From Pseudomonadota bacterium (lineage in GTDB: Bacteria; Pseudomonadota; Gammaproteobacteria; Pseudomonadales; Moraxellaceae), in assembly GCA_021804565.1 (NCBI GenBank), contig JAJZHK010000007.1, forward strand, positions 1 to 64,000: a stretch of 64,000 nucleotides of DNA. Reading direction: 5' to 3'. The position numbers and the translations under genes were made by a program. This document shows, one piece after another, positions 1,575-43,610 of this stretch; within the stretch, counting starts at the first letter, position 1; every line of letters begins with the position of its first letter. The notes under the pieces are model-generated. The model searched no databases, was not told where the DNA came from, and saw only the letters and a list, made by a program, of their open reading frames with translations.

Positions 1575-2587
1575 AGAGAGGACGGCTGTTCTGGGCAGGC
1601 CTGCTCCTGCTCCTTCCTTTTGTGGTCCATGCCCTGCTCGGACCGGCGTGGGTGAGAACGCTCGATTTTGCCCTGCTCTATGCCATGCTCGCCCTGGGCC
1701 TCAACATCGTCGTCGGTTTTGCCGGTCTTTTGGATCTCGGCTACATCGCCTTCTACGCGGTGGGGGCCTATACCTACGCCCTGCTCGATTCGCCGCAACT
1801 GGGCCTGCACTGGCCGAGCCTGTGCGTACTCGCCCTGTGTCCGCTGCTGGCCGCGGCGACGGGTATCGTGCTCGGGGCCCCCACCTTAAAGTTGCGCGGG
1901 GACTATCTGGCCATCGTCACCTTGGGCTTTGGCGAGATCGTGCGTCTGTTCATGAACAACCTCGACCGGCCGATCAACATCACCAATGGCCCCCAGGGCA
2001 TCAGCATGATCGATGCCTTGCATCTGGGCCGCTGGAGCCTGGACCAGGGCCTGAGGATAGGCCCCTGGTCTATCGACGCTGCCGTGGTTTTCTACGTCAT
2101 CGCCTTGCTGGTCTTGGCCCTGATGATCGGCGTGGCCTGGCGTCTGCAGCACTCCCGGCTGGGACGGGCCTGGGTGGCTTTACGCGAAGATGAAATGGCG
2201 GCGGCCGCCATGGGTGTGCCTCGACGTAACACCAAGTTGCTGGCTTTTGCCCTGGGCGCCAGTTTTGGCGGCCTCGCCGGCGGCCTGTTTGCGGCCTTCC
2301 AGGGCTTTGTCAGTCCGGAAAGCTTCTCTTTGATGGAGTCGATCATGGTCTTGTGCATGGTCGTCTTGGGTGGCATGGGACACATCGCCGGTGTCGTGAT
2401 GGGGGCGGTCCTGCTCACCCTGGTCCCCGAGGCCTTGCGTAGCCTGGCGCCGATGATGGGCAGCGCCGTGGCGCCCGAGAATCTGCGTATGCTGGTGTTT
2501 GGCGGCGCCTTGGTCCTGATGATGATCCTGCGACCGCAGGGCTTGTGGCCCTCGCGGCTACGGGCGCGGGAGTGGCGTCATGACTGA
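1571..2587 (+). CDS. livM: Branched-chain amino acid ABC transporter permease LivM
   Basis: Second permease of the Liv-type importer, 338 residues. The N-terminus has a membrane segment followed by LLYAMLALGLNIVVGFAGLL and GYIAFYAVGAYTYALL, the LivM family hallmark; the C-terminal half carries GGLAGGLFAAFQGFVSP and ends in LRPQGLWPSR. Length is typical of the shorter LivM proteins. The start ATG overlaps the livH stop, and the 3' end overlaps livG by eight bases, so the set is one transcript. With LivH it forms the membrane channel driven by LivG and LivF. Confidence 0.9.
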   Translation: MKRGRLFWAGLLLLLPFVVHALLGPAWVRTLDFALLYAMLALGLNIVVGFAGLLDLGYIAFYAVGAYTYALLDSPQLGLHWPSLCVLALCPLLAAATGIVLGAPTLKLRGDYLAIVTLGFGEIVRLFMNNLDRPINITNGPQGISMIDALHLGRWSLDQGLRIGPWSIDAAVVFYVIALLVLALMIGVAWRLQHSRLGRAWVALREDEMAAAAMGVPRRNTKLLAFALGASFGGLAGGLFAAFQGFVSPESFSLMESIMVLCMVVLGGMGHIAGVVMGAVLLTLVPEALRSLAPMMGSAVAPENLRMLVFGGALVLMMILRPQGLWPSRLRAREWRHD

Positions 2588-3347
2588 GGCGCTACGCCTG
2601 CACGGCATCGACAAGCATTTCGGTGGCATCCAGGCTTTGCGCCAGGTCAGCCTGAGCGTTGCGCCGGGCTCGCTCTATGGGATGATCGGCCCCAACGGCG
2701 CTGGCAAAACCACCTTGTTCAACATCATCACCGGTTTTTATCAGGCCGACGCCGGACACCTGCAGCTCTTTGGCCAGGACGTCCCGCTGCAGCAGGGGCC
2801 CGAGCAAAGAGTCGCCCTGGGGGTGGCCCGCACTTTCCAGAATATACGCCTGTTTGCGCAAATGAGCGTGCTCGACAACGTCCTCGTCGGCCGGCACCTG
2901 CACGCACGCACAGGGCTCTGGTCAGCGATCCTGCGTACCCGCGCCTGGCGGGACGACGAACGTCGCCAGCGGGACGTGGCGCAGGCCTGCCTGGCACGTG
3001 TCGGCCTCGCCGCCCGCGCCCAGGACACCGCCGCGGCGCTGTCCTATGGCGAGCAAAGACGCCTGGAGATCGCCCGTGCCTTGGCGACCGAGCCACGCAT
3101 CCTGGCGCTCGATGAGCCGGCTGCAGGCATGAACGAGCGCGAGCGTGAACAGCTGGCGGATCTGCTTTTGGGTTTGCGCCGGGAGGGCCTGACCCTGTTG
3201 CTGATCGAGCATGACATGTGCCTCATCGCCTCTTTGTGCGATCGCGTGCTGGCGCTGGATTTTGGCGAGGTGGTGATCGAAGCCGATCCTGCTAGCGTAC
3301 GCGCGCACCCCCGGGTGATCGCCGCCTATCTGGGGGAGGAGGCATGA
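2580..3347 (+). CDS. livG: Branched-chain amino acid ABC transporter ATPase LivG
   Basis: Cytoplasmic ATP-hydrolysing subunit of the Liv importer, 255 residues. The ABC landmarks are intact: Walker A GPNGAGKTT at 37-45, signature LSYGEQ at 154-159, Walker B ILALDEP at 174-180 and the switch histidine in IEHD at 211. The insert after Walker A with ARTFQNIRLF and the C-terminal HPRVIAAYLGEE are typical of LivG rather than LivF. It overlaps both neighbours (eight bases with livM, four with livF). Confidence 0.93.
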   Translation: MTEALRLHGIDKHFGGIQALRQVSLSVAPGSLYGMIGPNGAGKTTLFNIITGFYQADAGHLQLFGQDVPLQQGPEQRVALGVARTFQNIRLFAQMSVLDNVLVGRHLHARTGLWSAILRTRAWRDDERRQRDVAQACLARVGLAARAQDTAAALSYGEQRRLEIARALATEPRILALDEPAAGMNEREREQLADLLLGLRREGLTLLLIEHDMCLIASLCDRVLALDFGEVVIEADPASVRAHPRVIAAYLGEEA

Positions 3348-4054
3348 GCCTCTTGCAGGTGCAGGACCTGCAGGTGGCATACGGCGGGATAGCCGCGGTG
3401 CGCGGTGTCTCGTTCAGCCTGGCCGCCGGTGAAACACTGGCGCTCATCGGCGCCAATGGCGCGGGTAAAAGCTCTCTGCTCAAGGCCTTGGCCGGACTGA
3501 CGGCGGCCCGCGGGCAGGTGCTCTGGCAGTCCTGCGACTGGGCCGGCCAGCCCGCCCATCAGCGCAAACGGGCCGGACTGGCTCTGGTGCCGGAAGGCCG
3601 TGGCATCTTCGCCGACATGTCGGTGGCCGAGAACCTGCGCCTGGGCGCCTACGGGCGCAAGGACACAGCCGCTGTGGACGCGGAGATGGAGGCGCTGTGC
3701 CGGCGACTGCCGCGCCTGCGCGAGCGCTGGCGGCAACGCGCCGGAACCTTGTCCGGGGGTGAGCAGCAGATGCTGGCGATCGCGCGCGCCTTGCTCGGTC
3801 GGCCGCGCCTGCTCATGCTCGATGAACCGTCCATGGGTCTGGCGCCGATCATGGTGCAGCAGATCTACGAACTCATCGCCGACATCCAGCGCCAGGGGGT
3901 CGCCCTCTTGCTGGTCGAGCAGGCAGCGAGCAGGGCTTTGCGTATCGCGGCTCAGGCTCTGGTGCTGGAACAGGGACGTGTCGTCCTGTCCGGCACCGGT
4001 CTGGAACTGGCGGGTGACGAGCGGGTTCGCCAGGCCTACCTGGGTGGGGACTGA
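3344..4054 (+). CDS. livF: Branched-chain amino acid ABC transporter ATPase LivF
   Basis: Second ATPase of the Liv importer, 236 residues. Walker A is GANGAGKSS at 36-44, the signature LSGGEQ at 136-141 and Walker B LLMLDEP at 156-162. The LVPEGRGIFADMSVAENL segment and SMGLAPIMV after Walker B are hallmarks of LivF. It is the last gene of the operon and its start overlaps the livG stop by four bases. The importer would need a substrate-binding protein encoded elsewhere. Confidence 0.93.
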   Translation: MSLLQVQDLQVAYGGIAAVRGVSFSLAAGETLALIGANGAGKSSLLKALAGLTAARGQVLWQSCDWAGQPAHQRKRAGLALVPEGRGIFADMSVAENLRLGAYGRKDTAAVDAEMEALCRRLPRLRERWRQRAGTLSGGEQQMLAIARALLGRPRLLMLDEPSMGLAPIMVQQIYELIADIQRQGVALLLVEQAASRALRIAAQALVLEQGRVVLSGTGLELAGDERVRQAYLGGD

Positions 4055-4071
4055 TCTGGTGCGAGTCTGCG

Positions 4072-4080
4072 TGCTATCAT
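4072..4080 (+). promoter_or_regulatory. Candidate extended -10 promoter of the sugar-nucleotide cluster
   Basis: TGCTATCAT reads as an extended -10 element (TG, one base, then TATCAT, five of six matching TATAAT). It lies 34 bases before the chosen tviB start, between livF and tviB. No convincing -35 box is found 16-18 bases upstream, as allowed for extended -10 promoters. The same form appears at 43643, 43689 and, weaker, at 42178 and 59778. Confidence 0.4.
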
Positions 4081-4114
4081 GCCGCCCAAGTTATGCGATG
4101 AGCAGGAGTTCCTG

Positions 4115-5407
4115 ATGGATGGCACCTCGCCATGTGTTGGCGTCATAGGTCTGGGTTATGTCGGACTGCCTTTGGCCCTGGCTTTTGGTCGTGTTCTCGA
4201 GACGGTGGGTTTCGATATCAGTGCCAGCAAACTGGCCTCTTACCGGCAGGGTATCGATCCCACCGGAGAGATGAGCTGTGCCCAGATGCAGGCGGCGACA
4301 CGCCTGCGCTATAGCCATGACCCCAGCGCCCTGGCCGGCTGTGATTTCCTCGTGGTGGCGGTTCCCACCCCGGTCGATGCGGCGCATCAGCCGGATTTGA
4401 CCCCGGTGATCAAGGCCAGCGAGGCGATCGCCCCTTATCTCAAACCCGGTGTGGTCGTCATCTATGAGTCGACCGTCTACCCCGGGGTGACCGAAGACAT
4501 CTGCGTCCCGGTGCTCGAGCGTGGCTCTGGCAAGCGTCGTGGTCAGGACTTCTTCATGGGCTATTCGCCGGAGCGCATCAATCCTGGCGATCACGAGCAT
4601 AGGCTGGAGACCATCGTCAAGGTGGTCTCCGGGGAGGATGCGGCGACCCTCGACAAGGTCGCCTGGCTCTACAGTCAGGTGGTCAGCGCCGGCGTTTACC
4701 GGGCCTCCTCGATACGTGTCGCGGAAGCCGCCAAGGTCATCGAAAACACCCAGCGCGATGTCAATATCGCCTTGATCAATGAACTGGCGCTGATTTTTCA
4801 CAAGCTTGGCATCGATACCCGTGAGGTGCTGGATGCGGCGGCGACCAAGTGGAACTTTTTGCCCTTCAGCCCTGGTTTGGTGGGCGGCCACTGCATAGGC
4901 GTCGATCCCTACTATCTGACCTACAAGGCCCAGGAGGTGGGGTATCACCCGGAGGTGATCCTCGCCGGGCGGCGTATCAACGACGGTATGGGCGCCTACA
5001 TTGCCGAGCAGACGGTCAAGAAGATCATCCAGGCGGGCCTGCCGGTTAAGGATGCGCCTGTTCTGGTGATGGGGCTGACCTTCAAGGAAAACTGCGCCGA
5101 TACCCGCAACACCCGTGTCGTTGACATCGTCCGTGAACTGGCCGATTACGGCGCCCGCGTGCAGGTCTGGGACCCGGTGGCCGACCCTGAAGAGGTTCGC
5201 CATGAGTATGGGCTGGAGCTGCAGGACTGGCGTGGCACACAAGCTTATGTGGCGGTGGTGGCCGCGGTGGCGCACACCCAGGTGCGCGCTATCGATATCG
5301 ATGAGCTGGCGACGGCCAGTCATCGTGGCGCCCCTTTCATGGATGTGAAAGCGGCGTTCTCGGGTGAGCGCTTGAGCGCTGCCGGTTTTTCGCTATGGCG
5401 GCTTTGA
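4115..5407 (+). CDS. tviB: TviB/WbpA-like UDP-N-acetylhexosamine 6-dehydrogenase
   Basis: An NAD-dependent nucleotide-sugar dehydrogenase of 430 residues. It closely resembles TviB, which oxidises UDP-N-acetylglucosamine to UDP-N-acetylglucosaminuronic acid for Vi-type and O-antigen glycans. The NAD motif GLGYVG is at 12-17, and the catalytic cysteine is C260 in GGHCIGVDPYYL, with the TviB-type context YHPEVILAGRRIND after it. KVIENTQRDVNIALINELA is also conserved. The ATG at 4115 is preferred over a longer reading from 4079 because AGGAG precedes it by six bases. It heads a cluster with an epimerase, pgi and ugd. Exact substrate (GlcNAc or GalNAc form) is inferred. Confidence 0.88.
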   Translation: MDGTSPCVGVIGLGYVGLPLALAFGRVLETVGFDISASKLASYRQGIDPTGEMSCAQMQAATRLRYSHDPSALAGCDFLVVAVPTPVDAAHQPDLTPVIKASEAIAPYLKPGVVVIYESTVYPGVTEDICVPVLERGSGKRRGQDFFMGYSPERINPGDHEHRLETIVKVVSGEDAATLDKVAWLYSQVVSAGVYRASSIRVAEAAKVIENTQRDVNIALINELALIFHKLGIDTREVLDAAATKWNFLPFSPGLVGGHCIGVDPYYLTYKAQEVGYHPEVILAGRRINDGMGAYIAEQTVKKIIQAGLPVKDAPVLVMGLTFKENCADTRNTRVVDIVRELADYGARVQVWDPVADPEEVRHEYGLELQDWRGTQAYVAVVAAVAHTQVRAIDIDELATASHRGAPFMDVKAAFSGERLSAAGFSLWRL

Positions 5408-35267: not shown

Positions 35268-36275
35268 ATGCGGGAACTGACGGATTCAGGGGTGTTGTTA
35301 CGACTGGCTTATCAGGCTCTGCGCAAAGCGGGTGTCGATGCCGATGCGGTTCTGAGCCGTTGCGGGGCTGATCTTCTGGCCTTGGAGGACCCACGACTGC
35401 GTACCCCGGTGGCCGCCCAGGAGGCTTTCTGGCATGCCGTCCGCGAGGTGTCCGGGGACCCTCATATCGGCCTGCGCCTGGCGCGCCATCTGCCGCGTTT
35501 TCGCGGGCAGGTCATCGAATACCTTTTTTCCAGCAGCGCCACGTTTGGTGACGGCTTGCGCCGGGCCTTGCAGTACCAGCGACTGCTCAGTGACGCCATA
35601 TCAGGGCGTTTCGAGCAGGAAGGCGAGTTCAGCTATCTGGTCAGTGGCCACCAACTGCGTGAGCCTGAGCCGCTGGCGGTATGCATGATGGCCGGCATCA
35701 TTCAGTTTTTCGCGCAAGTGACCGACGGCGAGTTTCGCCCTAGCGAGGTCTGGCTCAGGCATCCCGCCGGTGCTGATCCTGCCGAGTACGAGCAGCTGTA
35801 CAACTGCCCGGTTCGCTTTGATCAGGCAGAAAACCGCCTGTATTTTGCCAGCAGCATCCTCGATAAAACTTTCTGGCACGCCGAGCCTGAGCTGCTCAAA
35901 CTGCATATGCAGGTGGCTACCGAGAAACTGGCCGAGCTCGAGCGTATGGATCTGGTCGCTGATGTGCGTCGTGTGATCGCCCAAATTCTTGAGAGCGGTG
36001 ATGTTTCACTGGAGGCTGTCGCCGGTCTGCTCGAGCTCAAACCGCGCGCACTGCGCAGTCGTCTGTCGGAGGTGGGCACCAGTTTCAATCACATCCTTAA
36101 CGACTATCGCAGCCGTTTGGCGCGACGTTTGCTGGCCAAGACCGATGAGAGCATCGACCAGATCGTCTATCTGACCGGGTTTTCCGAGCCCAGTACCTTC
36201 TATCGGGCCTTTCGGCGGTGGACGCAAGAGACCCCGATCGAGTACCGCAAGCGCAAGCGTGACAAAACGCTGTAA
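35268..36275 (+). CDS. AraC family transcriptional regulator (OruR-like domain)
   Basis: 335 residues: an N-terminal ligand-type domain (about 10-210) of the arabinose-binding/OruR kind with GDPHIGLRLARHLP and ISGRFEQEGEFSYLV, and a C-terminal double helix-turn-helix with VAGLLELKPRALRSRLSEVG and IVYLTGFSEPSTFYRAFRRW, then TPIEYRKR. The ATG follows AGGAAG by a few bases. It converges on the acyl-CoA dehydrogenase pair, and regulators of this type often control fatty-acid or amino-acid catabolism, so it could control them; this is inference from position. Confidence 0.9.
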   Translation: MRELTDSGVLLRLAYQALRKAGVDADAVLSRCGADLLALEDPRLRTPVAAQEAFWHAVREVSGDPHIGLRLARHLPRFRGQVIEYLFSSSATFGDGLRRALQYQRLLSDAISGRFEQEGEFSYLVSGHQLREPEPLAVCMMAGIIQFFAQVTDGEFRPSEVWLRHPAGADPAEYEQLYNCPVRFDQAENRLYFASSILDKTFWHAEPELLKLHMQVATEKLAELERMDLVADVRRVIAQILESGDVSLEAVAGLLELKPRALRSRLSEVGTSFNHILNDYRSRLARRLLAKTDESIDQIVYLTGFSEPSTFYRAFRRWTQETPIEYRKRKRDKTL

Positions 36276-36291: not shown

Positions 36292-36316
36292 AAAAAAACC
36301 TGCCCAGAGGGCAGGT
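36292..36316 (-). terminator. Terminator of the acyl-CoA dehydrogenase operon
   Basis: Arms CCTGCCC (36300-36306) and GGGCAGG (36310-36316) flank a three-base loop. On the leftward strand the stem is followed by eight Us (A-run at 36292-36299). It lies about 50 bases beyond the dehydrogenase stop. The rightward AraC gene ends only a few bases before it. Confidence 0.88.
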
Positions 36317-36365: not shown

Positions 36366-37568
36366 CTACTTCAGCTCGGCTGAGCTCTTGCCGAGCAGGC
36401 GGCGGGCGATGATCAGCAGCTGGATCTGTTGTGTGCCTTCGAAGATATCGAGAATCTTCGAGTCACGTGCCCATTTTTCCAGCAATTCGTCCTCGCTGTA
36501 GCCGATTGCTCCCGCAATGGCGACACACTGCAGGGTAATTTCATTGCCGACACGACCGGCCTGCGCCTTGGCCATGGACGCCTCTTTCGAGTTGGGGATG
36601 CGGTTGTCCGCCATCCACGCCGCGCGCAGGGTCAACAGGCGGGCCGCCTCCCATTCCGCCTCCATACGGTACAGGCTGGCCTCCGCCTGACTCAGCAACA
36701 GCGGCGGCCGGGCATAGTCAGCGCCGATGCGGCCGCGCAAGAGTTCACGGGTCCGTTCAAGAGCCGCCGACGCCACGCCGACGGCCATGGCGGCGACCAG
36801 CGGGCGGGTGTTGTCGAAGGTCTCCATGACGCCGGCAAAGCCCTTTTTGACGTCGATGTCCGGGTTGCCGAGCAGATTGCTGGCCGGTACCCGGCAGTCG
36901 CTGAAGCTGATCGCCGCGGTGTCCGAGGCTTTGATGCCCAGCTTTTTCTCGAGGCGGGTCACGCTCATCCCCGGGGTGCCCTTTTCGACGACGAAGGATT
37001 TGATCGCCGCACGTCCCAAGCTGGGGTCGAGGCTGGCCCAGACCACCACGCTATCGGCACGATCACCTGAGGTGACGTAGATCTTTTCGCCATTGAGGAT
37101 GTAGTCATCGCCATCACGACGGGCGGTGGTGCGTATCGCCGCCGAGTCTGAGCCACAGCCGGGCTCGGTGATCGCCATGGCCGCCCAGCGGCCTTTGAAG
37201 CGCGCCAGTTGCTCCTCATTGGCGACGGCGGCTATGGCGGCATTGCCGAGTCCCTGCCTGGGCATGGCCAGGAGCAGGCCGACATCCCCGCGACACAGCT
37301 CCATGATGCCTAGACAGGTCGATATATTGCTGCCATTGCGTACCGCGGAGCCATCCTGGCCCTGGCGCTTGCTGGCGGTGCTGGCGCCGGCGGCCTCTGG
37401 CGCACCGTCGTTCATGCCGTCGAGCAGAGAGGCGAGCATGCGCAGTTCCTTGGGCTCGGCGTGCTCTGCCTTGTCATACTTGCGCGATATGGGGCGGAAA
37501 ACCTGGTCAGCGACATCACGAGCCTGCGCCACCAGGGTGGCAAATTTCTTGGGTGTTTCAAGATTCAT
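36366..37568 (-). CDS. Acyl-CoA dehydrogenase, catalytic-type subunit
   Basis: FAD enzyme that introduces the alpha-beta double bond in acyl-CoA. 400 residues, normal for the family. MAITEPGCGSDSAAIRTTA is the FAD/substrate signature, NGEKIYVTSGDRAD follows, and FDNTRPLVAAMAVG holds the conserved TRP. The base E377 is in IFEGTQQIQ near the C-terminus, so the enzyme looks active. The ATG at 37568 has AAGGAGA upstream. It lies 17 bases after a second, divergent-sequence dehydrogenase and is followed by a terminator. Substrate chain length is unknown. Confidence 0.92.
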   Translation of the reverse strand: MNLETPKKFATLVAQARDVADQVFRPISRKYDKAEHAEPKELRMLASLLDGMNDGAPEAAGASTASKRQGQDGSAVRNGSNISTCLGIMELCRGDVGLLLAMPRQGLGNAAIAAVANEEQLARFKGRWAAMAITEPGCGSDSAAIRTTARRDGDDYILNGEKIYVTSGDRADSVVVWASLDPSLGRAAIKSFVVEKGTPGMSVTRLEKKLGIKASDTAAISFSDCRVPASNLLGNPDIDVKKGFAGVMETFDNTRPLVAAMAVGVASAALERTRELLRGRIGADYARPPLLLSQAEASLYRMEAEWEAARLLTLRAAWMADNRIPNSKEASMAKAQAGRVGNEITLQCVAIAGAIGYSEDELLEKWARDSKILDIFEGTQQIQLLIIARRLLGKSSAELK

Positions 37569-37585
37569 GGCGCTCTCCTTGGGCT

Positions 37586-38887
37586 TTACAGATGCATGGC
37601 GCCGTGCATGAGTGCGATGGCGCGCAGGTCGCGATACCAGCGCTCGACGGGGTGCTCCTGGGTGTAGCCATGGCCGCCCAGCAATTGGACACCATGGGTT
37701 CCGATCTGCATGGCTTTTTCGCTGCACAGCAGCCGGGCCAGGTAGGCTTCCCTATGAAAGTCGAGGCCCTGTTCGGCACGGCTGGCCGCGCGCCAGGTGA
37801 GCAGGCGCATGGCGTCGAGGTCGATCGCCATCTGCGCGATCATGAACGCGACGCTTTGCCGGTGGCTGATCGGTTCGCCGAAGGCGGAGCGCTCGTTGCA
37901 GTAGGGAATGACGTAATCGAGCACGGCCTGTGCGCAACCCTGAGCCAGGGCACACCAGCCGAGGCTGGAGAGATCGATAAAGGCGCGATAGTCAAAGTCT
38001 TCGCCGCCCAGCTTTTGACGGGCCGGGATGAGGACATTGTCGAGTTGCAGGTCGACGAGGGCGCAGGCGTGTAAGCCCATGGCCGCTCCCTCACGCAGCT
38101 GCAGACCTGGCGTGCCGCGTTCGACGATGAAGACGGCAGGACCCTGTTCGGTTTGCGCGGCGATGAGCAGGACCTCGGCTTGTGCACCGCGCAGCACCAG
38201 ACTCTTGCGGCCATCCAGTCGATAGTCCTGGCCTTGCCGCCGGGCTTGTGTGCTCAGCCGGGCAGGATCAAACAGCGGTTCTGGCTCGACGATGGCGATG
38301 CTGGCGATCAGGGCCTGCTGTTCGTCGAGAAAGGCCGGCAGATAGGTGGCCTGCTGTTCGCCCAGGCCCCAGCGGGAGATCGCATTGGCGGCTCCGACCG
38401 GGGTGAGGAGGGCGGCGGCCAGGCTGAGGTCGCCCTGGGCCAAGGTTTCGGCGATCAGGGCCTGGGTCAGCTGGGCATGGTCCTGTGCCATGCCTCCATG
38501 GGCCTCGGGCAGTGCGTAGGCGAGCAGACCGAGTTCGCCGGCCGCCTTTTCCAGACCATCGGGCAGGATGGTCTGGCTGTCGGCCAGATGGGCACGTGGA
38601 TAGAGCTCGTCGCGTGCGAAGCGCTTGAGGCTGTCACGGATTTGTTCCTGCTCATCACTCAGGCTAAGGTCAAAAAGATCGCTTCTCGAGCCGGGGCGCA
38701 GCACCGCGCGCGCCCCGGCCTGGGGTTTGAAGCGGCGCGTGACCTGGGTGGCCAGGCGAAAGCCTTGACGGCTACTTTGGTAGAGTACATTTTCCATAGG
38801 GCGCCGTAAGTGCAACCGGTCGGGCCACTCTGCTTGCGCGATACGGTTGAGAATATTAAGGCCCAAGCCTTGCAGGCTCATGCTCAT
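37586..38887 (-). CDS. Acyl-CoA dehydrogenase-like protein lacking the catalytic glutamate
   Basis: 433 residues with the acyl-CoA dehydrogenase fold: helical N-terminal domain (LSDEQEQIRDSLKRFARDELYP), middle domain and C-terminal helices (FGEPISHRQSVAFMIAQMA, HGVQLLGGHGYTQEHPVERWYRD). The usual ending with EGT is replaced by LRAIALMHGAMHL, giving histidine 428 where glutamate is expected, and the terminal helix is absent. The alternative base position in DLSSLGW also lacks glutamate. It may be a structural partner of the adjacent dehydrogenase. ATG at 38887 chosen for the AGGAGG before it; a GTG two codons earlier overlaps that site. Confidence 0.88.
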   Translation of the reverse strand: MSMSLQGLGLNILNRIAQAEWPDRLHLRRPMENVLYQSSRQGFRLATQVTRRFKPQAGARAVLRPGSRSDLFDLSLSDEQEQIRDSLKRFARDELYPRAHLADSQTILPDGLEKAAGELGLLAYALPEAHGGMAQDHAQLTQALIAETLAQGDLSLAAALLTPVGAANAISRWGLGEQQATYLPAFLDEQQALIASIAIVEPEPLFDPARLSTQARRQGQDYRLDGRKSLVLRGAQAEVLLIAAQTEQGPAVFIVERGTPGLQLREGAAMGLHACALVDLQLDNVLIPARQKLGGEDFDYRAFIDLSSLGWCALAQGCAQAVLDYVIPYCNERSAFGEPISHRQSVAFMIAQMAIDLDAMRLLTWRAASRAEQGLDFHREAYLARLLCSEKAMQIGTHGVQLLGGHGYTQEHPVERWYRDLRAIALMHGAMHL

Positions 38888-38979
38888 ACCCACCTCCTGA
38901 TGTGAGACTCAGTGCACTCTGCCGCAGTGGGTGTCAGCTTGTGAATGGCCGTGCAGACAGCGGCCTCTTGCCAGTGGGG

Positions 38980-42803: not shown

Positions 42804-43610
42804 TTACAGGCGTATGTCCTTGCCATGGATCAGGTTGAGCAGGCTTTTGACCACTTTGCTATGGCCGGCGACGATGCGTCCGCTTTTCAGGTAGTCATGC
42901 CCCCCCTGAAAGTCGGTGACCAGACCACCGGCTTCGCGGATCAGCAGGTCACCGGCCGCCATGTCCCACAGGGCAAGACCGTTTTCCCAGAAACCATTGA
43001 GGCGACCGGCAGCCACGTAGGCCAGGTCGAGCGATGCTGCGCCAGCTCGGCGTATGCCGGCACTGCGCTCGGCGACTTGCCGGAAGACCTGCAAATAGTC
43101 CTCCATATCGGCCATCTGGTCTGGCCGGAAGGGAAAGCCTGTGCCGATGAGGGCGTCATCCAGCCCCTTGCAGACCGGTACGCGCAGACGATGACTGCCC
43201 AGACGGGCGCCGCCACCACGCAAGGCGGTAAACTCTTCCCGGCGTAGCGGGTCGTAGACGATGCCGATCTCGGTATGGCCGCGAACCTGCAAGGCCAGGC
43301 TGATGGCAAACTGAGGGAAGCCATGGATGAAATTGGTGGTACCGTCGATGGGATCGAGTATCCATACCGATTCGCGTTCAAGGCCATCACTGCCCAATTC
43401 TTCACCGATGAAGCCATGGTCCGGGTAGATGGCGCTCAACTGCTCACGGATGAACTGTTCGACCTTGCGGTCGGTGGCGGTGACGTAGTCGTGCACGCCC
43501 TTGCTCTGGACATCGGCGTGGTCGCGGCGCTCGTAAGCACGGTAGATCATTTCTCCGGCAGAGCGCACGGCGCGTAGCGCCATGTTGAGGGTCGGCTGCA
43601 TCGTCGACAT
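42804..43610 (-). CDS. suhB: Inositol-1-monophosphatase family protein SuhB
   Basis: 268 residues of the lithium-sensitive phosphatase fold. Metal-binding motifs are GEELG, WILDPIDGTTNFIHG and WDMAAGDLLIREAGG. In enterobacteria SuhB also joins the rRNA antitermination complex; the same role here is inference. ATG at 43610 follows AGGTGA; a second ATG three codons later is possible. It is divergent from trmJ, as known in Pseudomonas and Escherichia-like orders. Confidence 0.94.
   Translation of the reverse strand: MSTMQPTLNMALRAVRSAGEMIYRAYERRDHADVQSKGVHDYVTATDRKVEQFIREQLSAIYPDHGFIGEELGSDGLERESVWILDPIDGTTNFIHGFPQFAISLALQVRGHTEIGIVYDPLRREEFTALRGGGARLGSHRLRVPVCKGLDDALIGTGFPFRPDQMADMEDYLQVFRQVAERSAGIRRAGAASLDLAYVAAGRLNGFWENGLALWDMAAGDLLIREAGGLVTDFQGGHDYLKSGRIVAGHSKVVKSLLNLIHGKDIRL

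Follow-up and report, generated by a model that had tools for sequence, protein, structure and literature searches.

Does a pair of adjacent acyl-CoA dehydrogenase (ACAD) genes, one of them without the catalytic glutamate of the family, encode two separate enzymes or the two halves of a single one? The question is raised by a 64,000-nucleotide stretch of a Moraxellaceae genome (assembly GCA_021804565.1, contig JAJZHK010000007.1, positions 1 to 64,000), hereafter the window. Gene A (37586..38887, minus strand, 433 aa) and gene B (36366..37568, minus strand, 400 aa) are separated by 17 bases (37569..37585), and their coordinates and leftward orientation agree with a preliminary description made from the sequence. 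From the comparative evidence presented below, A and B are very probably the subunits of one enzyme dependent on flavin adenine dinucleotide (FAD), a mixed half-site pair orthologous to FadE24 and FadE23. A would be the non-catalytic FadE24-type subunit, as judged from its reading frame, its Pfam domains and synteny with a mycobacterial locus, and B the catalytic FadE23-type subunit, as judged from its reading frame, its Pfam domains and the catalytic glutamate kept by its relatives.

Complementary FAD half-sites

In human short-chain ACAD (SCAD) the FAD is described as lying at the dimer interface: one monomer binds it through F152, L154, S155, T187, G160 and S161, and the neighbouring monomer makes further contacts through R297, Q365 and G369 (PMC13027082). 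Using human medium-chain ACAD (MCAD) as a ruler, we equated SCAD S155/G160/S161/T187 with MCAD T136/G141/S142/T168 and SCAD R297/Q365/G369 with MCAD R281/Q349/G353. To these we add F284, G285, Q292 and G352, which we take to be partner contacts, and R256, T378 and Q380, which we take to be own-site residues. Relatives were tabulated after merging identical proteins (112 to 109 rows for A, 110 to 107 for B) and leaving out of both tables one locus in which B is cut at the contig end (L120).

The two proteins have kept opposite halves of this site. Each of the seven partner-side residues (R281, F284, G285, Q292, Q349, G352 and G353, MCAD numbering) is present in all 109 A sequences, whereas in the 107 B sequences they are found 2, 1, 10, 0, 2, 60 and 2 times, respectively. 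Conversely, the own-site residues T136, G141, S142, T168 and T378 are each present in 107 of 107 B and only in 7, 3, 1, 0 and 0 of the A sequences, with Q380 in 106 B versus 8 A and R256 in all B. For a test of invariance with 45 sequences of each protein, 8 own and 7 partner sites were chosen from known structures. All seven partner sites fell among the 28 invariant columns of the 433 of A (hypergeometric P = 2e-9) and six of the eight own sites among the 68 invariant columns of the 400 of B (P = 4e-4). The reverse counts were 0/8 own sites in A and 0/7 partner sites in B. Seven further sites that gave no clean separation were set aside: Y133, V135, W166, I167 and G377 (own) and H291 and I350 (partner). 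B departs from MCAD at Y133, V135 and W166.

In the window the split can be followed motif by motif (all on the minus strand, as are all positions given for the two proteins). The own FAD loop of A is degenerate (residues 198-207, AIVEPEPLFD, 38267..38296, with V200, L205 and F206 at the positions of T136, G141 and S142), as is its flavin motif (228-234, KSLVLRG, 38186..38206, with L232 at that of T168). Its partner-side contacts are intact both at residues 333-344 (RSAFGEPISHRQ, 37856..37891), where R333, F336, G337 and Q344 are found in 109/109 relatives, and at 401-405 (QLLGG, 37673..37687), where the same is true of Q401, G404 and G405. By alignment, B has intact versions of the own FAD loop (133-141, ITEPGCGSD, 37146..37172) and of the flavin motif (161-166, EKIYVT, 37071..37088, with T166), and has lost the partner-side motifs at 280-293 (36690..36731) and 348-357 (CVAIAGAIGY, 36498..36527). 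Since A keeps the partner contacts and B its own pocket, only the combination of the B pocket with the A contacts should work. We consider this complementary loss, as read from the alignments, stronger evidence for pairing than the missing catalytic base.

The catalytic-base position

The preliminary description placed His428 of A at the glutamate position, with the protein ending right after it (LMHGAMHL), and noted the absence of glutamate at the alternative site used by isovaleryl- and long-chain enzymes. Both statements hold. In the alignment of the 109 A sequences His428 (37604..37606), five residues from the C-terminus, falls on MCAD Glu376, a placement consistent with the tree rows and the fold comparison, and neither the alignment nor the structure model puts an acidic residue of this A there. 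At the helix-G alternative site, where A of the window reads DLSSLGW (residues 305-311), the relatives have Gly (61), Ser (26), Ala (18), Cys (2) or Thr (2), and never an acid. B has its base, Glu377 (36438..36440), within IFEGTQQIQ as had been described, and an MCAD-like CoA site without the alternative base (251-256, FDNTRP, 36801..36818). The Glu376 position is glutamate in 106 of the 107 B, the exception being the most divergent sequence (L046). The C-termini separate the two proteins completely, every A ending exactly five residues past the base column (109/109) and every B 23 (107/107).

The loss of the glutamate is thus real in the window, but it is not the most general sign of A, as 21 of the 109 A sequences keep Glu. 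Two more have Asp, and the column otherwise contains His (34), Ala (15), Gln (14), Phe (11), Trp (4) and rarer residues, so that the position is non-acidic in 86. The Glu-bearing rows form one clade of 16 (14 of them actinobacterial) plus five other rows. In a quick tree rooted at the midpoint the base label needs four changes, and the non-acidic rows share a branch of 89 rows, mainly gammaproteobacterial (support 87, not starred), in which three Glu rows and two Bacteroidota are found as well. We infer that Glu was ancestral in A and was later lost. The A rows that keep it have lost other own-site residues as well, and because the actinobacterial sequences (L049, L050 and L051) share the lost flavin motifs, their Glu looks vestigial, which is the main refinement of the initial picture of one deficient partner. 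The base position of A drifts while its contacts to the FAD of the partner stay invariant.

The pair of the two Bacteroidota (Chitinophagales, L116 and L129) falls within a group of gammaproteobacterial sequences and has Phe as the residue at the base position. These findings suggest a horizontal transfer.

The AlphaFold2 monomer model of A had a mean predicted local distance difference test score (pLDDT) of 91.5 and a predicted template modelling score of 0.86. Both models have the ACAD fold (best Z against solved ACADs 43.3 for A and 41.0 for B). Against MCAD (1egd) the A model gave Z 43.1 and a root-mean-square deviation (rmsd) of 2.3 over 354 residues, and the aligned range ended at A 429 and MCAD 377, which is consistent with 428 lying at 376, the comparison reporting range ends and not residue pairs. 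Among the 50 matches listed for A the lowest rmsd was to 6wy8 (1.9 Å over 342 residues). Structure 4x28 (ChsE4-ChsE5) was not among the matches listed for A or B, an absence that carries no weight.

Co-occurrence and adjacency of the two genes

At E <= 1e-70 the genomes with A were exactly those with B: 29 of the 58 relatives and 7 of the 274 genomes of the class. Both counts include this genome, and a few genomes belong to both sets. None of the genomes searched had A alone or B alone at this threshold. With A at E 1e-40 the count among relatives rises to 34, the five extra matches having the 31-35% identity that ordinary ACADs show. B followed A on the same strand, with gaps of 10-160 bases, in 33 of 33 loci (29 relatives and four records of a plasmid collection). 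Two plasmid-listed records, NZ_CP104448.1 (4.1 Mb, 37 features) and NZ_LN868939.1 (2.7 Mb, 2 features), are chromosome-like in size. A scan of a genome collection gave at least 576 stretches encoding some A relative, not all necessarily of this type, and among the best 80, which were analysed, B followed A in 78 (gaps -4 to 160). The two exceptions, L060 and L109, are loci whose contig stops about 230 bases past A. A single ordinary ACAD matched by both queries (L047) was left out of all pair counts, and L062, L063 and L084 appear to repeat genomes counted as L035, L030 and L040.

The hosts include Pseudomonas, Acinetobacter, Alcanivorax, Marinobacter, Thalassolituus, Fontimonas, Aquabacterium, actinobacteria (14 tree rows) and the two Chitinophagales. 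The flanking genes vary between genera, so A and B behave as a unit, and for the same reason the genomic context yields no substrate. One genome (G066, contig C22, 13218-16835) has, behind a single A, two tandem B-like genes (59% and 61% to B) that may be alternative catalytic subunits for it. ABO_1652/ABO_1653 of Alcanivorax, considered as another such pair, are FadB2/FadA.

Relation to FadE23-FadE24 and other heteromeric dehydrogenases

A Mycobacterium metagenome-assembled genome (MAG; locus L128) has a PF00459 (inositol monophosphatase) gene and a PF04055 (radical-SAM) gene followed by relatives of A and B (50% and 59%). This order matches impC-pflA-fadE24-fadE23 of M. tuberculosis, as given in PMC2834668, and makes A FadE24-type and B FadE23-type. 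By the synteny of this locus, the pair thus appears orthologous to mycobacterial FadE24/FadE23. The window has no adjacent impC-pflA, its own PF00459 gene (42804-43610) lying about 4 kb off beyond other genes. FadE23-FadE24 (Rv3140-Rv3139) is named as a complex in PMC11980559, citing Wipperman 2013, and resembles A/B in gene order, the FadE24-type gene preceding the FadE23-type one. The difference is that most gammaproteobacterial A have His, Ala, Gln, Phe or other residues instead of Glu.

Other heteromeric ACADs are similar by description. In ChsE4-ChsE5 (FadE26-27) and ChsE1-ChsE2 (FadE28-29) the alpha subunit is reported to bind the isoalloxazine and carry the Glu, and the beta subunit to contact the ADP-ribose (PMC11153573). 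The same division appears in A/B at the level of residues, although the Chs enzymes act on cholesterol side chains. CasC of Rhodococcus jostii RHA1 is described as having one half with Glu and another needed for FAD (PMC8399759), but there both halves are fused in one protein and the substrate is a bile acid. Scd1AB, Scd2AB and Scd3AB of Pseudomonas stutzeri Chol1 (PMC8399759) and ScdC1C2 of Comamonas (PMC6678751) are proposed heteromeric dehydrogenases and also proteobacterial, but belong to bile-acid and steroid degradation. Tcur3481-Tcur3483 (6wy8), the structure with the lowest rmsd to the A model (26% identity), is titled a steroid ACAD, and no paper on it was found in the open literature. 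A search of the open literature on heteromeric ACADs and FadE23/24, which left most subscription papers outside, gave none evidently about this pair in gammaproteobacteria. The enzyme of PMC6851490 is an unrelated homotetramer.

The comparison with actinobacterial FadE pairs made in the preliminary description is upheld as a likeness and can be taken further, as A/B would seem to belong to the FadE23-FadE24 family itself. Its steroid side finds no support here. A heteromer in a gammaproteobacterium is likewise supported for A/B, but enzymes of this kind had been proposed there before, as with Scd1AB. The paired design was known in mycobacteria, and heteromeric ACADs had been proposed in P. stutzeri Chol1. 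What is new, against the open literature searched, is the wide spread of the pair, the drift of the base position of A and the presence in this genome of two more pairs that are complementary.

Proposed enzyme and alternative explanations

The idea of a heteromeric enzyme with one deficient partner is favoured by the complementary half-sites, by co-occurrence and adjacency and by the synteny with FadE23-FadE24. The proposed enzyme is an alpha2beta2 tetramer of A and B with one FAD site per A-B dimer. B would contribute Glu377 as the base, together with the flavin pocket and the site for acyl-CoA, and A the adenosine and pyrophosphate contacts (R333, F336, Q344 and Q401-G405) across the dimer interface. 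The reverse site, made of the A pocket and the B contacts, should be dead at both ends, which would leave two FAD and two active sites per tetramer. Neither protein alone should hold FAD properly, and the electrons would presumably go to electron-transfer flavoprotein. The assembly, the stoichiometry and the electron acceptor we infer from known relatives.

Several observations weigh against this enzyme. The separation of the half-sites is not perfect, as R256 is still present in 24 of the 109 A, Gly377 in 63, and the partner-set G352 is still Gly in the 60 B already mentioned. The 21 Glu and two Asp at the base position of A might point to some unseen role of that residue. The monomer model of B is less certain (pLDDT 82.9). 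The heteromeric 6wy8 ranks by Z below many homotetramers for the A model (rank 32, Z 40.9 versus 43.3) and is absent from the 50 matches listed for B. One genome (G094) has A and B on different contigs, in an assembly of 540. Finally, the catalytic activity of the mycobacterial complex is stated in PMC11980559 to be different from acyl-CoA dehydrogenation.

This last statement, together with the wide variation at the base position of A, could favour a homotetramer of A with a non-dehydrogenase role, such as acyl-CoA binding or regulation, independent of B. A role of this sort leaves the co-occurrence and adjacency with B without explanation, and also the fact that exactly the residues facing the FAD of the neighbour are kept, and we consider it very improbable. 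We give equally little credence to a steroid side-chain dehydrogenase of the ChsE/IpdE/Scd type, which would share the same alpha2beta2 logic and towards which the low rmsd between the A model and a protein titled steroid ACAD could point. Among the 12 flanking open reading frames (29.8-45.3 kb) examined by Pfam, two had no match and none belonged to a typical steroid-degradation family, the families found being chemotaxis, purine synthesis, Nudix, hexapeptide, AraC, inositol monophosphatase and SpoU methylase. A scored 31.2 bits against the NCBIfam model IpdE2 (cut-off 450), and TIGR03213, the one marker used, had no match in this 92%-complete MAG; its control gave matches in 5 of 14 genomes, but never above the cut-off. 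The mycobacterial complex is moreover called cholesterol-repressed (PMC11980559).

Slightly less probable still is that B works alone as a normal active homotetramer, A being a degenerating copy that is turning into a pseudogene. A does lack the base, the C-terminal tail and the majority of the flavin residues of its own site, but it is an open frame with all seven partner-side residues in every one of its 109 relatives, from several phyla. Moreover, B has itself lost the partner-side residues, and at E <= 1e-70 neither gene occurred without the other in any of the 58 and 274 genomes. That A is active by itself through another acidic residue at the helix-G site has next to no chance of being right. 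A missing Glu376 alone is no proof of inactivity, as the position is Gly in L001, L003 and L006 and Ala in L004, which are further ACADs of this genome (L002, L009 and L014, read in wrong frames, were left out of this comparison). But the alignment contradicts the idea, with no Glu or Asp at helix G in any A and with the T136, G141, S142 and T168 positions lost.

Substrate and lipid metabolism

By a narrow preference, the proposed A/B enzyme may serve lipid turnover, where it would dehydrogenate ordinary or branched fatty acyl-CoA, and not act on steroids. MAB_3486, the FadE24 orthologue of M. abscessus, is reported to co-localise with lipid inclusions, and its deletion to lower triacylglycerol by 57% and raise free fatty acid (PMC11980559). 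In view of these inclusions, we checked the association of the pair with the wax ester synthase/diacylglycerol acyltransferase family (WS/DGAT, PF03007). Among the relatives WS/DGAT was present in 25 of 29 pair-positive and 19 of 29 pair-negative genomes (Fisher P = 0.12), and in the class sample in 5 of 7 versus 13 of 267 (P = 1e-5, confounded by kinship). An obligate link was rejected after 49 additional genomes with the pair, the sources of 49 of the 80 loci (completeness not given), were examined, as 17 of them had no WS/DGAT. Pair-bearing genomes without it included 9 of 12 Pseudomonas, 3 of 3 Thalassolituus and both Chitinophagales. A contrast in WS/DGAT between genomes whose A has the N-terminal extension and those whose A lacks it (26/28 versus 2/6, P = 0.004; weakened to 58/77 versus 2/6, P = 0.047, with the additional genomes included) was not relied on.

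Other complementary pairs in the genome

Two further pairs with a similar division were found in this genome. One is located on contig C17 (L132, minus strand), with genes at 2840-4234 (464 aa, start chosen here) and 4225-5325 (366 aa) that overlap by about 10 bases, and the other on contig C61 (L133, plus strand), at 2100-3608 (502 aa) and 3605-4660 (351 aa), overlapping by 4 bases. The 464-aa protein of C17 has the Glu and no QxLGG, while the 366-aa protein has LQVLGGSGY and neither Glu nor flavin motifs. The motifs of the catalytic partner are AITEPGAGSD, CFISGG and IFEGTNQIN, but LAILAEHG. In C61 the catalytic partner has AITEPGAGTD, VFISNG and YEGSNQLN, but LELMGADG, and the partner without Glu keeps IQLLGGNGY. 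In both pairs R281, Q349 and G353, the three partner positions backed by the SCAD description, follow the split. Two positions go against it, F284 being lost in all four proteins and Gln292 kept in the catalytic proteins and lost in their partners. The complementary pattern in these single sequences thus looks weaker than in A/B.

An acetoacetate-decarboxylase-family gene adjoins each pair (directly upstream in C61, together with an AraC gene in C17). Relatives of the non-catalytic subunit were found (E <= 1e-25) in 8 of the 58 genomes for C17 and in 2 for C61, each count including this genome. In a tree of non-catalytic and catalytic subunits, the A clade and the non-catalytic proteins of C17 and C61 do not group, the branches of the last two being very long (about 3.5 and 2.8).

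Features of the locus

The start of A was placed at the ATG at 38887, and an upstream GTG at 38893 would lengthen it by 2 aa. Shine-Dalgarno-like motifs can be read before both genes, GGAGG before A and, within the 17-base gap, AGGAG ahead of the ATG of B. Directly 3' of B there is a terminator-like hairpin with a T-run (36298..36316, minus strand), and as a search gave 3 sites of that type versus 2.3 in shuffled sequences, it is weak evidence for a terminator. A matched all three Pfam ACAD domains (Acyl-CoA_dh_N/M/1: PF02771, PF02770 and PF00441), and B matched PF02770 and PF00441, with PF02771 slightly below its cut-off (20.9 versus 22.9 bits). No NCBIfam model was listed above its own cut-off for either protein.

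The first 71 residues of A (38675..38887) form an N-terminal extension with a net charge of +8 and two helices in the model. A cationic extension of about 70 residues is present in 106 of the 109 A sequences and missing from L044, L045 and L046. A function as an amphipathic membrane anchor was unsupported, the best 18-residue moment being no better than in shuffles (median shuffle fraction 0.42, 106 sequences with 50 shuffles each). An AraC regulator with an Arabinose_bd domain (35268-36275) is convergent to the pair. As a conserved regulator it was rejected: a 56-58% match was found near the pair in just 3 of the 80 loci (L054, L063 and L072), and the protein that matches at 26% in L089 is probably a different one.

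Biological significance

A gene-by-gene annotation would read this pair as two independent dehydrogenases, one of them inactive. If A and B work as proposed, a two-gene enzyme of the FadE23/FadE24 type would span Pseudomonas, Acinetobacter, Alcanivorax, Marinobacter, Thalassolituus, actinobacteria and some Bacteroidota, and the poorly understood mycobacterial pair could be tested in harmless hosts in the laboratory. A base position that drifts next to invariant partner contacts would be a natural example of divided labour within one active site. This 2.5-Mb genome carries three such pairs, with no sign of steroid degradation so far. It is conceivable, at somewhat less than even chances, that half-site-complementary ACADs are a general bacterial architecture that has arisen repeatedly, with the FadE24 of Pseudomonadales as a dead subunit without even the vestigial Glu. 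If this were true, heteromeric half-site ACADs would not be a speciality of actinobacterial steroid degradation.

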